54,605 nucleotides of DNA from Thermoflexus hugenholtzii JAD2 (GCA_945903275.1 CAMDNW010000013.1:1-54605); one strand, 5' to 3'; shown: positions 31,205 through 36,978, numbered from the stretch's first letter. Notes: generated by a model from the sequence alone, not told the origin. Translations and numbers: made by a program.

Positions 31205-31329
31205 GACACCTCAAGGATACGTTGTGCTGGGGTCTTCGCCGAGTACCGTTTGACCTAGCAATGCGACTCGGCATCATCTGCTGACGATACTCAGTCGCAA
31301 CGGAAGAGCCTTATATTCACATCGATCGC

Positions 31330-32242
31330 TCGCCGGTGGTTCGTCAGGGCCGCCCTCACCGCTTTGCTCGGCACCGGGATCGCCATCGCCACGACCGCTT
31401 GTGGCGCGGTAGGCGTGGGTGACAATGGGCGTCTCAAGGTCGTGGCGATACCACCCAGATCGGCGCGCTAGCCCGCGAGGTCGGGGCGACCGCATCAACC
31501 TTGTGACGCTGTTCGCGGCTGACGTTGATCCGCACCACTTCGAGCCGAAGGCGGCCGATGTCCGCAAGCTCAGCGATGCAGCGGTTGTCCTCCGGAATGG
31601 CATCCACCTCGACGAATTCCTCGACAAGATGATTGAGAGCAACAGCACCGCAGTGCCCGTGACCGTCACCGAGGGCATCACACTGCACGCGCCGACGGAC
31701 GGCGACGATCACGACGACGAAGATCCGCACGTCTGGCATGACCCGATGAACGCGAAGGTGATGGTAGATAACATCGCGAAGGCGCTGAGCGCAGTGGATG
31801 CCGCCAACGCCTCGACATACGCGCAGAACGCCATGACCGACAAGGAGAAACTCGATGCCACCGACACGCAGATCAAGCAACTGATCGACTCAATCCCGCC
31901 GGCCAACCGTAAGATCGTCACCAACCATGACGCATTCGGCTACTTCATTCGCCGCTACAACCTCACGTATGTCGGCGCCATCCTCTCCACCTCGACGCAG
32001 GGCGAGGTGTCGGGAAAGACCTGGCCGCCCTGCAAACGCTGATCAAGGCGGAAGGCATGAAGGCGATTTTCGCCGAGAGCTCGATCGACGCAAAAATGGC
32101 GAAGCGGATCGCCGATGACACGAACGTGAAGGTAGTCGACAATCTCTACAGCGACTCGCTTGGTAAGCAGGGGTCGGGCGCGGACACAGTTGACGGCATG
32201 CTACTGGCCAACGTCCGTACGATTGCGGAGGCGCTCCGCTAA
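31330..32242 (+). pseudogene. zinc/manganese ABC transporter substrate-binding lipoprotein, frameshifted
   Basis: Joined across frames this is a ZnuA/MntC-type metal-binding protein. A signal peptide ends TTACG, then DPHHFEPKAADVRKLSDA, a His/Asp-rich loop (DGDDHDDEDPHVWHDP), TNHDAFGYFIRRYNLTYVGA and a C-terminal NLYSDSLG..ADTVDGMLLANV. At least three indels break it: near 31441 and 31489, in the segment before INLVTLF, and near 32018 (AAAGACC where AAGGACC would keep frame). No start codon is clear. No permease or ATPase gene is adjacent, so the transporter appears lost. Confidence 0.8.
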
Positions 32243-32822: not shown

Positions 32823-33431
32823 CTACTTCGCGCCGGCGACCTGAAGCTGCTCGCGCAGGCGATCCTTCAACACAGGGCCGAGCGTCTTGGCCTTCGTCAC
32901 GCCGTCGGGGCCGATGAAGAACGTCGCTGGAAGACTCCGGGCACCGTATGCCCCCTGCACCACACCTCGGTCGTCGAAGACGATCGGGAATGTGATACGC
33001 AGCCGCTGCGCGAAGGCGATCGCGTCGTCGCGAGAGTCGACCGAGGTGGTGTTCACCCCGACGAAAAGCACCTCGCTGCTGCGGTCGCGGTAGGCCGTCT
33101 CGAAGTCGGGCATCTCTTCGCGGCAGGGCGCGCACCAAGTCGCCCAGAAGTTCACGACCACGACCTTGCCGCGCGCCTCTGAGAGTCGGAATCGCTTGCC
33201 GTCGCTCGTCTCCAACGTGAAGTCGGGTGCGGGCTGGCCAACGACGGCCTCACCCCGGTCGGCGGCGACAACGACATTCGCCTCGGCGCTGCGGGGCGCG
33301 GCAGCCTCGCGTGCGGCGATCTGCTCGCGGACGAAGAGCAGACCAATCACGCCGACGATCAGCGCGGTGGCGCTATAGCGCAGCAGGCGGCGGTTAGTGG
33401 TTTCCGGCATGTTTGAGGCGGCTCCTTCCAT
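32823..33431 (-). CDS. TlpA-like membrane-anchored thiol-disulfide oxidoreductase
   Basis: A 202-residue thioredoxin-fold protein held by one N-terminal helix (about residues 20-36, [13 protein letters not shown]), facing the outside. The active site is [19 protein letters not shown] (CxxC), with [20 protein letters not shown] before it and [12 protein letters not shown] with the cis-Pro. It reduces or oxidises extracytoplasmic thiols, for example in cytochrome c or copper-centre maturation. It is divergent from the sulfur genes. The start may be ATG 33431 or ATG 33410; neither has an ideal ribosome site. Confidence 0.9.
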
Positions 33432-33477: not shown

Positions 33478-33499
33478 ATTCATTAGCATCGTTATGAAT
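33478..33499. promoter_or_regulatory. operator-like inverted repeat between tlpA and the sulfur island
   Basis: ATTCATTA, a six-base spacer, then TTATGAAT form an imperfect palindrome (7 of 8 positions), 16 bases before the TsuA start and 46 upstream of the tlpA start. Size and AT content recall ArsR/SmtB-type operators, such as those of sulfide-sensing BigR/SqrR. No such regulator gene is present in the window. The regulator is therefore inference. Confidence 0.4.
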
Positions 33500-33515
33500 G
33501 TAATGTTGCCGTAGC

Positions 33516-34757
33516 ATGACTACTTCCCCCGCCGTCCGACCGCAGGGCTTGGCGCTGCTCACGGAGTCCCGCCAGATCGTGGTGGTTGCGCTCCCGGTAG
33601 CGCTATACGTCGTTGCGCTGACACTCGGCACTTCGTTCGCGACGTTCTTCGCGGTCGGGACGACGGTCGGGTTCACGCTACAGCGCTCGCGGCTCTGCTT
33701 CGTTTCCGCGTTCCGTGATCTGATCCTGCTCCACCAGGGCCGCACGCTGAAGGCCCTGCTAGTTGGCCTAGCGGTCGGTAGCGTTGGCTTCGCGATGGTG
33801 ATGAGCACGATCGTCGGCGACCCGAGCACCGGGCGTATGCCCGACGACGCGCATATCCTGCCGCTTGGCATCACTACGGTGCTGGGCGGGGTGCTGTTCG
33901 GCGTCGGCATGGTTCTGGCGGGTGGGTGTGTCACCGGCTCGCTGTACCGTATGGGTGAAGGATACGTTGGCTCCTGGGTAGCGATGGGCGGCGTTCTCCT
34001 CGGTCTGTATGCGCTGAACCGCACGTGGAACTGGTGGTGGGAGGTCACGATCTCGACCTCGCCGCGTGTCTGGTTCCCGACGAGCCTTGGCTATGGGGTA
34101 TCGCTGGTGCTGACCGCCGTGCTGCTGGCGCTCTCGTACCTCGCCACACTGTGGTGGGAGCGACGGCAGCCGGCGGGCATCCCGATCCCGATCCGCCGCG
34201 CGCTGCCTGCTCCCCCGGCGAGTGTCGCCGACGATGTGCGCGTCGCGCTGCGTGGCGTGTTCCGCCGCGAGTGGCCCGCGGTGGTCGGCGCCGTCGTCAT
34301 CTCCGTGCTCAACATCCTGCTCTTCATCCGCTATCGCCCATTGGGTGTCGTCGGCGAGATCTCCCGCTGGGCGAACGATCTCGGTTCGCTCGCTGGGGTG
34401 CCAGTCGGCGTGCTTGAGGGCCTCGACAGCCTCGCAGGTTGCGCCGCCGCGCTCGCCGAAGGCGCTTCATGGTTCACGGACGGCTTCATGCTCAATTTCG
34501 GCATCGTCGTCGGGGCGTTCACGGGGGCAGTGCTGGCGCGGGAGTTCCGGCTGCGCATCCCTCGGCAGCCCCAGCGATACGTGCAGTCTCTGGGCGGCGG
34601 CATGGTGATGGGCTACGGCGCGGGGCTAGGTCTCGGCTGTACCTTCGGCGCGTTCTACTCAGCGATTCCGTCACTCGCGTTGAACGGTTGGGTTTACGGC
34701 CTCGCGATGGCAGCTGGTGCGGTCATCGGCGCTCGGATCATTCGGCGGCTCATGTGA
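33516..34757 (+). CDS. YeeE/YedE (TsuA) family sulfur transporter
   Basis: A 413-residue membrane protein of the TsuA/YeeE family, which imports thiosulfate through conserved cysteines. Seen are LQRSRLCFVSAFRDLILLHQ, GGVLFGVGMVLAGGCVTGSL followed by YRMGEG, and MGYGAGLGLGCTFGAFYSAI, giving the three Cys sites typical of this family. About ten hydrophobic helices alternate with two halves of similar layout. It opens a run with a small protein, TusA and a rhodanese; all are consistent with thiosulfate or sulfane-sulfur uptake. The substrate is inferred from family and neighbours. Confidence 0.9.
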   Translation: MTTSPAVRPQGLALLTESRQIVVVALPVALYVVALTLGTSFATFFAVGTTVGFTLQRSRLCFVSAFRDLILLHQGRTLKALLVGLAVGSVGFAMVMSTIVGDPSTGRMPDDAHILPLGITTVLGGVLFGVGMVLAGGCVTGSLYRMGEGYVGSWVAMGGVLLGLYALNRTWNWWWEVTISTSPRVWFPTSLGYGVSLVLTAVLLALSYLATLWWERRQPAGIPIPIRRALPAPPASVADDVRVALRGVFRREWPAVVGAVVISVLNILLFIRYRPLGVVGEISRWANDLGSLAGVPVGVLEGLDSLAGCAAALAEGASWFTDGFMLNFGIVVGAFTGAVLAREFRLRIPRQPQRYVQSLGGGMVMGYGAGLGLGCTFGAFYSAIPSLALNGWVYGLAMAAGAVIGARIIRRLM

Positions 34758-34774
34758 ACGAGGTGGAGCCGACG

Positions 34775-35014
34775 GTGACAGAGATCGCGCTCGGTGCTCA
34801 GCCGCTGCCCGCGATACTCGATGCAATAGAGGACGCGATCGTCCGTGCGGCTGGTGGCGAGGTGCTGGAACTAACGACCGAGCACGACGTGGTAGTAAAG
34901 TATGTACTTCCGACGGCAGCGATGCGCAGCGTGCGTGCCGCTTTCCGCAAGGACGGCGAGTCCGGCTGGAGACTGACGCTGCGTCCGCGCAGCTTGCCGA
35001 AGAGCGAGCAGTAG
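34775..35014 (+). CDS. small protein between TsuA and TusA, possibly Cys-less TusA/DUF2249-like
   Basis: A 79-residue protein, from GTG 34775 with GGTGGAG six bases upstream; an in-frame GTG overlapping the TsuA stop (34754) is an alternative. The layout PLPAILDAIEDAIVRAAGGE then VLELTTEHDVVVKYVLPT and GWRLTLRP follows the beta-alpha-beta order of TusA and DUF2249 proteins (P.P...l..al....Ge.l.l...hd), but the Cys of the CPxP motif is missing. No firm family assignment. Its place between importer and carrier suggests a role in the same pathway. Confidence 0.6.
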   Translation: MTEIALGAQPLPAILDAIEDAIVRAAGGEVLELTTEHDVVVKYVLPTAAMRSVRAAFRKDGESGWRLTLRPRSLPKSEQ

Positions 35015-35050
35015 ACGCCAAGGACACGAGGCGAGAACCGAGGAGATACA

Positions 35051-35293
35051 ATGATCGAGACGCAGGACGTGCCGTTGCTGGATGTGCGCGGCGAAATCTG
35101 TCCGTACCCGATGCTGCGTACCAACAAGGAGTTGGACGAGGTGCAGCCAGGGGTTCTCGCGCTGGACGTGTTGACGGATCACCCGCCTGCGCTGTCCACG
35201 ATTCCGCCGGAAGCAATGAAGCGCGGCTACGGCTGTGAGATCGACGAGGTCCGCGATGGCGAGTGGGTCATTCGCCTGTTCAAGGATCAGTAG
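35051..35293 (+). CDS. TusA/SirA/YedF sulfur carrier protein
   Basis: An 80-residue TusA-family protein with the diagnostic LDVRGEICPYPMLRTNKEL (R-G-x-x-C-P-x-P), whose Cys carries persulfide. The rest of the fold is present (VLTDHPPALSTIPPEAMK and EWVIRLFK). Ribosome site GAGGAG lies seven bases before ATG. It stands 36 bases after the small protein and 66 before the rhodanese gene. In YeeE-YeeD pairs the TusA-like partner accepts sulfur from the importer; this gene is the likely equivalent. Confidence 0.94.
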   Translation: MIETQDVPLLDVRGEICPYPMLRTNKELDEVQPGVLALDVLTDHPPALSTIPPEAMKRGYGCEIDEVRDGEWVIRLFKDQ

Positions 35294-35359
35294 GCACAGA
35301 GTCTCATCGGCTGCGATGCACCGTGCGAGCAACTGCGAAATAAAGAGGGGGGAGCTTAA

Positions 35360-36367
35360 GTGGCATTCTTGTGGACGCCTCGTTTGGATGTGTTAGTGGT
35401 CACGCTGATCGCGGCGACGACGATAGCGTGTGGCACGCAGGCGAAGCCAGCGGGCGACGCGCCGAAGGCCGCAGCAACCGCCGCAGCGACCGCCACGGCG
35501 ACCGCCACGGCGAAGCCCGCGGGCGCCGTGCTGAAGCCGAACCCCGACCGCGCAGTGAGCGTGGATTGGCTCGCGGGCAAGCTTAACGACCCGGCCGTTG
35601 TGCCGGTCGATCTGCGAACCAAGGAGAAGTACGACGCGGGTCACATCCCCGGCGCCGTGCTGCTAGCGTCGGCGGCATTCAGCCAGAAGACCGGTGACGT
35701 CAGCGACTTGGCGCCGGCGGCGCAGGTCGCTGAGGCGCTGAGCAAAATCGGCGTGAAGCCGACGGACGCTATCGTTTTCTACGACGACGGCGGCAGCCTG
35801 TCTGCGACGCGCGCTCTGTGGGGCCTCGACGTCTACGGTCATAAGGACTCACGCGTGCTGAACGGCACGTGGACCTCGTGGGAAGCCGCGAAGAAGCCGG
35901 TGACGAAGGACGTTCCCACGCGTGCGTCGACGCAGTACGCGTTCAGCGGCGCGCCGAACACCTCGATCGTGGTGACGTTCGACCAGATGGCGAAGGCAGT
36001 CGGTGACCCATCGAAGATCGTGTGTGACTCGCGCACTGCCGACGAGTACACGGGCCGTGATCTGCGCGCGCCAGCGAAGAGCGGCGGCCACGTCCCCGGT
36101 GCGCTCAACCTCGCCTACAACGACGCGGTGGCGAAGACCGGCGAGTTCCTCCCGGTCTCGGAGCTGAAGAAGCTCTACGACAACGCCGGTATCAAGGCGC
36201 AGGACAACCAGACGATCTTCACATACTGCCAGTCTGGCGTCAGAGCGGCGCACGCTTGGTTCGTGCTGAAGTACCTCATCGGCTATGAGAAGGTGGCGGT
36301 ATACGACGGCTCCTGGGAGGAGTACGGCGGGCGTACCGACACGAAGATCGAGAGCAGCCGCAGCTAG
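35360..36367 (+). CDS. tandem-rhodanese sulfurtransferase, predicted lipoprotein
   Basis: A 335-residue protein with a signal sequence ending TTIACG, a low-complexity Ala/Thr linker (about residues 36-52, from a gcgaccgccacg repeat) and two rhodanese domains. The C-terminal domain has the active-site loop YCQSGVRAAHAW (Cys-x4-Arg); the N-terminal one has Asp (YDDGGS) at the Cys position and is inactive. That is the layout of thiosulfate sulfurtransferases. GTG 35360 is preceded by GGGGGGAG. It presumably handles thiosulfate outside the membrane before or alongside TsuA. Confidence 0.93.
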   Translation: MAFLWTPRLDVLVVTLIAATTIACGTQAKPAGDAPKAAATAAATATATATAKPAGAVLKPNPDRAVSVDWLAGKLNDPAVVPVDLRTKEKYDAGHIPGAVLLASAAFSQKTGDVSDLAPAAQVAEALSKIGVKPTDAIVFYDDGGSLSATRALWGLDVYGHKDSRVLNGTWTSWEAAKKPVTKDVPTRASTQYAFSGAPNTSIVVTFDQMAKAVGDPSKIVCDSRTADEYTGRDLRAPAKSGGHVPGALNLAYNDAVAKTGEFLPVSELKKLYDNAGIKAQDNQTIFTYCQSGVRAAHAWFVLKYLIGYEKVAVYDGSWEEYGGRTDTKIESSRS

Positions 36368-36387
36368 CCTTTGAGGTGATGCAACGC

Positions 36388-36415
36388 ACGAAGGCCCCGT
36401 CGCCGGGGCCTTCGT
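36388..36415 (+). terminator. intrinsic-type terminator hairpin after the sulfur genes
   Basis: ACGAAGGCCCCG and CGGGGCCTTCGT make a perfect 12-bp stem with a TCGC loop, 20 bases after the rhodanese stop. The T tract is poor (GGTATT). It separates the sulfur set from the next lipoprotein gene, which nevertheless could be read through. Confidence 0.75.
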
Positions 36416-36432
36416 GGTATTCCGGGTGGGTG

Positions 36433-36978
36433 ATGCACAATGCTCGACAGTTTGTCTCGGTGGTGGCCCTGCTCGCGTGCGCGGCGCTGACGGCGTCGTG
36501 CGCCCGCGCTGGCACGCTGGAGCGCGGCGCCGAGTTGCGTGTGACATGGGTACTACCGCGCGAGTTCCCGGCACAGGTCTCGATGCACCGCATCACCTCG
36601 GGCGGTGAACCGCCGCTGCTGCGGACGTACGAGCGTGGCGTGTCTCCGGACCTCGGCGCGCCGATCGAAAACGGGGTGCTGCGCGTCGAGCTAGACCGCT
36701 CAGAGACGCTGCTGGTCGTGGTGCGCAACCCGCTCGACCGGCCTGTGCGCTTCTGGATAGCTCCGCATCTGCCCGTGCCGCACTCGGCGGAATCGGCGCT
36801 GATGATCCGCTGCCTCTGCACCGGGGAGACGTATGAGGTCCCGGCGGGAGGAACCTGGGTACGTGCGGTGCAGATCGGAATCCGGCGTCGGCAGGCGGTG
36901 GAGCGCATGACCGTGGCACACGTCGTGACGCTGGGCGAAGCACCGACCATGGACTCTTATTCGGGTGCTTCGCGTTAG
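36433..36978 (+). CDS. lipoprotein with a CxC motif, function unknown
   Basis: A 181-residue product from ATG 36433. A signal peptide ends LTASC (lipobox) near residue 23. The body is beta-rich (LRVELDRSETLLVVVRNPLD; RFWIAPHLPVP) and contains the short pair RCLCTGETYEVPAGGTW, comparable in pattern to the copper-binding CFC of Cox11-type assembly factors but without overall recognition. It may bind a metal such as copper at the outer face of the membrane. Genes for an oxidase are not present near it. The upstream extension of the frame covers the terminator and is not expected to be coding. Confidence 0.6.
   Translation: MHNARQFVSVVALLACAALTASCARAGTLERGAELRVTWVLPREFPAQVSMHRITSGGEPPLLRTYERGVSPDLGAPIENGVLRVELDRSETLLVVVRNPLDRPVRFWIAPHLPVPHSAESALMIRCLCTGETYEVPAGGTWVRAVQIGIRRRQAVERMTVAHVVTLGEAPTMDSYSGASR

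Follow-up and report, generated by a model that had tools for sequence, protein, structure and literature searches.

How a YeeE-type transporter hands sulfur over to a TusA-type carrier, and which proteins cooperate with that carrier, was stated as an open question in the work on YeeE–YeeD (PMC11073785). A 54,605-nucleotide (nt) stretch from Thermoflexus hugenholtzii JAD2 (hereafter the window, in whose positions all coordinates are given) raises this question in a particular form: what is a TusA-like protein devoid of the sulfur-carrying cysteine doing directly behind a transporter of this family? A preliminary description of the locus had proposed a module for sulfur import and relay, made up of a TsuA-like importer, a small unassigned protein, a TusA carrier and an extracytoplasmic tandem-rhodanese lipoprotein, with a TlpA reductase and a CxC lipoprotein at its ends; thiosulfate would be desulfurated outside. 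All of these genes are present in the window as judged from open reading frames and Pfam matches (Table 1). We found that the transporter, the small protein, TusA and the lipid-anchored tandem rhodanese constitute a conserved four-gene unit of poorly known Chloroflexota. We give about even chances to the idea that this unit represents a TsuA-type importer fed outside by the rhodanese and emptied by TusA, and that the cysteine-less TusA paralogue associates with this importer.

The small gene had initially been assigned a start at 34775 and a length of 79 residues. The gene itself is borne out, whereas its start is most likely the GTG at 34754, resulting in a protein of 86 residues. Read from this codon, the gene shares 4 nt (GTGA) with the end of the transporter gene, and we prefer this start because relatives (G021, G017, G007 and G318) show an equal overlap in the form of either ATGA or GTGA. 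The translational coupling suggested by the overlap would count in favor of the small protein being attached to the transporter. For the small protein, 60 relatives were searched first and 393 genomes of the class next, which yielded 27 strong homologues; a search of the phylum added two more (G083 and G430). In 28 of the 29 genomes with readable context, the small gene lies directly downstream of the transporter gene on the same strand. Pairwise ratios of nonsynonymous to synonymous substitution rates (Nei-Gojobori) range from 0.08 to 0.51 across the homologues, with some pairs near synonymous saturation, and by this measure the gene is under purifying selection. Given these ratios and the constancy of its place, the small gene is not a chance open reading frame.

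The commonest gene order, transporter, small gene, tusA and rhodanese, is shared by the host family, family f14 and G430, a member of another class. The co-occurrence of importer, TusA and extracytoplasmic rhodanese in related genomes, on which the preliminary description depended, is thus observed. Where the order differs, the small gene tracks the transporter rather than tusA. In two genomes (G009 and G360) both tusA and the rhodanese gene lie upstream of the transporter, and in a third (G150) the rhodanese gene does, the short contig showing no tusA; in all three the small gene still directly follows the transporter. In the AT-rich genomes G006 and G020, the small gene and tusA are separated by a CtaA/Cox15 gene of opposite orientation (L036:5494-6417 and L037:5450-6379). 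These arrangements bear on a different explanation, in which the small protein would be no subunit of the transporter; it would act as a sensor, or on TusA as a soluble partner or regulator, and its adjacency to the transporter would reflect operon order only. TusA-family proteins do dimerise in solution, the binding of YeeD to YeeE requires its cysteine (PMC11073785), and a YeeE-type protein, SoxT1B, can act in signalling (PMC11582611). Moreover, tusA comes directly after the small gene in most genomes. However, the small gene stays behind the transporter even where tusA is displaced, and its overlap is with the end of the transporter gene rather than with the beginning of tusA. We therefore regard this explanation as rather unlikely.

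Remoter Chloroflexota mostly have the transporter and TusA, often together with a rhodanese, without the small gene. The gene is also absent from 40 other searched genomes of the class to which G430 belongs, and the G430 protein branches within the host-family clade. Taken together, these two observations suggest that G430 received its copy by horizontal transfer.

The proposal that the middle protein is a cysteine-less relative of TusA, rather than a protein of unrelated fold, is upheld by both structure prediction and profile comparison. The AlphaFold model (predicted local distance difference test score, pLDDT, of 87) displays the TusA fold with the order β-α-β-α-β-β. Foldseek placed a SirA/TusA-like structure (3hz7) first, and VIA-align placed YeeE-YeeD (8k1r, Z 10.0) first, with 3lvj also among the top matches. 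Since the C-terminal domains of IF3 score nearly as high as TusA-type structures, the fold alone would not decide the identity of the protein; the relationship to TusA rests on the fold together with profile comparison, in which hhalign matched the small-protein profile to the TusA of the operon with an E-value of 1.7e-8. The same profile gave chance matches only against PDB sequences. Pfam returned nothing for the window protein, and the relatives did not reach the TusA gathering score of 28.6 bits (best E-value 0.0097). The best sub-threshold match of some homologues is DUF2249 (PF10006), and the small proteins have a similar DLRGxPPPE-like start without the cysteine. However, this match is weak, occurs in only three of 15 members (best E-value 9.1e-4) and in none reaches the gathering score of 29.5 bits, and the small gene is tied to a Sulf_transp gene.

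In a tree based on 84 alignment columns, the small proteins form a single clade (support 100/99). Leucine 18 of the window protein (codon 34805-34807) occupies the position of the catalytic cysteine of TusA, and the CPxP motif is absent. None of the 27 aligned homologues has a cysteine in this column, and neither does the G430 protein; in 26 of the 27 the residue is L, P, V, M, A or S. About half of the members have a cysteine in β-3, at a column that is also often cysteine in TusA, while the window protein contains none there. Conservation is seen at T42, P53, A55 and G59, and positions 45 and 50 are acidic and aromatic, respectively. Thus, the small protein is probably a TusA paralogue that serves the transporter in a non-catalytic role. 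Such a paralogue did not turn up in the open-access literature searched, where it appears to be undescribed. In a conserved cysteine-less TusA paralogue coupled to a transporter, docking would be naturally separated from chemistry.

The transporter next to it is, by sequence, TsuA-like in its length, order and relay cysteines, yet belongs to a longer subfamily. It aligns with TsuA of E. coli in collinear order (30.6% over 363 columns), and phmmer matches it to S. thermophila YeeE (StYeeE, 6leo). C61, C138 and C375 align with C22, C91 and C293 of StYeeE, so that the three putative relay cysteines are in the TsuA order, and R67, R145 and E148 match R28, R98 and E101, the YeeD-contacting residues that were open to comparison (PMC11073785). 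All six residues are invariant in the aligned long homologues. However, with 413 residues and an extra loop containing a fourth cysteine, C309, the transporter falls outside the TsuA/YeeE class of 330–350 residues lacking such a cysteine, and it scores below both NCBIfam TsuA cut-offs (130.8 bits versus 400 and 103.5 versus 645). C309 is absent from E. coli TsuA; every aligned long homologue has it except for one, in which the cysteine is shifted by one column. Among alignable Chloroflexota transporters, the long ones carry C309 with one clear exception (G406), and two short ones have neither the loop nor the cysteine. The loop is probably extracytoplasmic: it lies just before a helix ending in a positively charged REFRLR motif, the glutamate of which corresponds to E261 on the cytoplasmic side of StYeeE, and the distribution of arginines agrees with this homology-based orientation. 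The host genome also encodes a split, two-gene YeeE-family transporter resembling PmpAB/YedE1E2 (G000:C3:21653-22523, L088).

Of the two remaining members of the unit, TusA scores 60.1 bits against the Pfam cut-off of 28.6, and its CPYP motif is invariant in 11 aligned sequences. In two genomes (G049 and G058), TusA-like proteins with CPYT in place of CPxP follow the rhodanese (L083:4711-5013 and L085:2059-2325). The rhodanese is of the tandem type (TST/MST): the first of its two domains has no active-site cysteine and the second has C290 within CQSGVR, the motif being either CQSGVR or CQTAVR in the window and relatives. A lipobox-like cysteine follows an N-terminal hydrophobic stretch in the 13 relatives inspected. 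The PDB matches are thiosulfate and mercaptopyruvate sulfurtransferases, and the CQSGVR loop, as read from sequence, does not decide between these donors.

How might these four proteins work together? The lipid-anchored rhodanese, located outside the membrane, would form a persulfide on C290. The sulfur, either as persulfide or as thiosulfate bound there, would be passed to C309 in the outer loop of the transporter and would then move along a TsuA-type relay, C375-C138-C61, to be accepted by C17 of TusA docked at the cytoplasmic face. The small protein, having lost the sulfur-carrying cysteine, may have been retained to assist the transporter without catalysis of its own, probably binding at or near the cytoplasmic exit, where it could, alone or paired with TusA, contribute to docking, releasing or gating the carrier. 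With its fourth cysteine and a rhodanese at the surface, the cassette offers a concrete, mutable hypothesis for the entry of sulfur from outside. In a bolder version, which we consider unlikely, the rhodanese-coupled YeeE subfamily would relay persulfide, not thiosulfate, over four cysteines beginning with C309, and the dead TusA paralogue would be a permanent docking or gating subunit.

Alternatively, the transporter might be a plain thiosulfate channel with TusA acting as TsuB, the rhodanese and the small protein being bystanders or independent detoxification genes. The conservation of the three TsuA cysteines and the docking residues is in line with this idea, as is the fact that many Chloroflexota have only the transporter and TusA. 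On the other hand, the four-gene grouping holds across families and likewise in G430, the copy there falling within the host family. In addition, rhodanese genes adjoin transporters with a C309 equivalent on plasmids of Azospirillum, Shinella and Microbacterium, that is, in Pseudomonadota and Actinomycetota, and at least the Shinella and Microbacterium rhodaneses have an N-terminal signal or membrane-anchor stretch. These observations make the plain channel distinctly unlikely in our view. On all three plasmids, the rhodanese gene is directly upstream of the transporter (L162, Azospirillum; L163, Microbacterium; L164, Shinella), and that of Microbacterium is annotated as two overlapping frames.

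Another alternative is selenium import, as proposed for YedE-YedF (FdhT-FdhU; PMC5322559). That system shares with ours the Sulf_transp family, the CPYP motif and a TusA-type partner that begins at the transporter stop (yedE and yedF overlap in E. coli). Furthermore, the best NCBIfam matches, both below cut-off, are YedE/FdhT for the transporter (182 bits) and YedF for TusA (44.5 bits), the window TusA is nearer to E. coli YedF (7e-11) than to TsuB (8e-7), and SelD is present in many relatives. However, E. coli YedE matches the transporter only in circularly permuted order, and the TusA-fold protein in the overlapping position lacks the cysteine here. A selenium role is very improbable, because no SelD scores above the cut-off in the host genome, which is 97% complete; the same is true of the transporter-carrying G003, G008 and G048. 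In most SelD-positive relatives (SelD loci of G005-G050), the selD frame holds one TGA, consistent with a selenocysteine-containing SelD. We also considered whether missing sulfate assimilation could be the reason for the cassette. This is unsupported: the host carries a CysH-type reductase along with another PAPS_reduct gene. Across relatives, PAPS_reduct, counted by eye, shows no clear correspondence with the transporter. A search for ATP sulfurylase (PF01747) gave no match.

Several observations weigh against an importer fed by the rhodanese and accompanied by the cysteine-less paralogue. The main objection is experimental: the C17A variant of S. thermophila YeeD loses nearly all binding to YeeE (PMC11073785), and a paralogue without the cysteine may consequently have to bind elsewhere or through TusA. 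The only genome in which the small gene does not follow a transporter, G022, has a long-branched homologue of the small protein beside TlpA (L041/L111), and no long transporter was detected in that genome; this homologue may be what is left of the cassette. In G008 and G014 (L078 and L081), which represent two host-family genera, the slot between transporter and tusA is taken by a TusA paralogue with an intact CPLP or CPIP motif. These proteins fall outside the small-protein clade, which rules them out as its direct ancestors. Finally, in several Chloroflexota with a C309 transporter the stretch read contains no rhodanese. C309 and rhodanese are therefore not strictly associated, and shared ancestry confounds the link between them.

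Compared with known systems, the cassette is close in layout to TsuA-TsuB (YeeE-YeeD) of S. thermophila and E. coli (PMC11073785), with which it shares the collinear transporter, the three relay cysteines, the docking residues and a CPxP carrier in the same operon. It differs in the longer transporter with its fourth cysteine, in the carrier being nearer to YedF, and in having both the cysteine-less paralogue after the transporter and the lipid-anchored rhodanese. A relay from an outside sulfurtransferase through YeeE to TusA has been proposed for Desulfurivibrio dismutans, where periplasmic lipoprotein sulfurtransferases are found beside YeeE/YedE (PMC12142623), and for the YTD cluster of cable bacteria (PMC13047784). 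However, no cysteine-less TusA paralogue has been described in either system, and YTD has DsrE-like and Chp1/Chp2 proteins instead. Similar models with a rhodanese outside have already been put forward for Desulfurivibrio; it is the cysteine-less paralogue that appears to be undescribed in the literature searched.

Table 1. Genes of the sulfur cassette and its neighbors in the window
Feature	Position	Strand	Evidence and remarks
TlpA/ResA-like thiol-disulfide protein, membrane-anchored, WCAPC	32823-33431	-	Divergent neighbor, partial linkage; Pfam AhpC-TSA 3.2e-29; NCBIfam ResA 6e-32, below cut-off
YeeE/TsuA-family putative sulfur transporter, 413 residues, long subfamily	33516-34757	+	Pfam Sulf_transp 2.9e-63
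Cysteine-less TusA-fold small protein, 86 residues	34754-35014	+	No Pfam match; AlphaFold model and profile homology
TusA-family sulfur carrier, 80 residues, CPYP motif with C17	35051-35293	+	Pfam TusA 1.9e-16
Tandem rhodanese, lipid-anchored, 335 residues	35360-36367	+	Pfam Rhodanese 4.8e-34, two domains
CxC lipoprotein, 181 residues, predicted Cox11-like fold	36433-36978	+	Optional neighbor, outside the sulfur cassette

Of the genes flanking the cassette, the CxC lipoprotein had been counted among the relay members, a role that we do not retain. The protein occurs in six of the 60 relatives, and its model (pLDDT 81) resembles apoCox11: VIA-align placed 1so9 first (Z 9.5, root mean square deviation 2.8, 111 aligned residues), the next unrelated row scoring 6.6. 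Because it is an optional neighbor with a predicted Cox11-like fold, it probably lies outside the sulfur path, and we treat it as a copper-chaperone-like protein. It shares with Cox11/CtaG the CxC motif and also has conserved histidines, whereas it differs in carrying a lipoprotein anchor and in lacking a match to Pfam CtaG_Cox11, which is missing for all six members. The window protein has no other Pfam match either and reaches 47.8 bits with NCBIfam LIC11469 (cut-off 150); the family profile found no match among PDB sequences. An aa3-type COX1 gene is present in the host, in which Pfam detects no Cox11, and CtaG_Cox11 gave no genomic match in 40 relatives. The TlpA gene adjoins the cassette in only some relatives (loci L023, L026 and L089). 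The wider neighborhood does not look conserved, as the flanking genes of 14 loci seem unrelated between loci (translations judged by eye, no family search). Further upstream in the window, a gene for a ZnuA-type metal-binding protein (31300-32242) is apparently broken across frames: positions 31419-32042 match ZnuA (1e-54) and the C-terminal part runs on in another frame (32057-32242), pointing to either a pseudogene or an assembly error.

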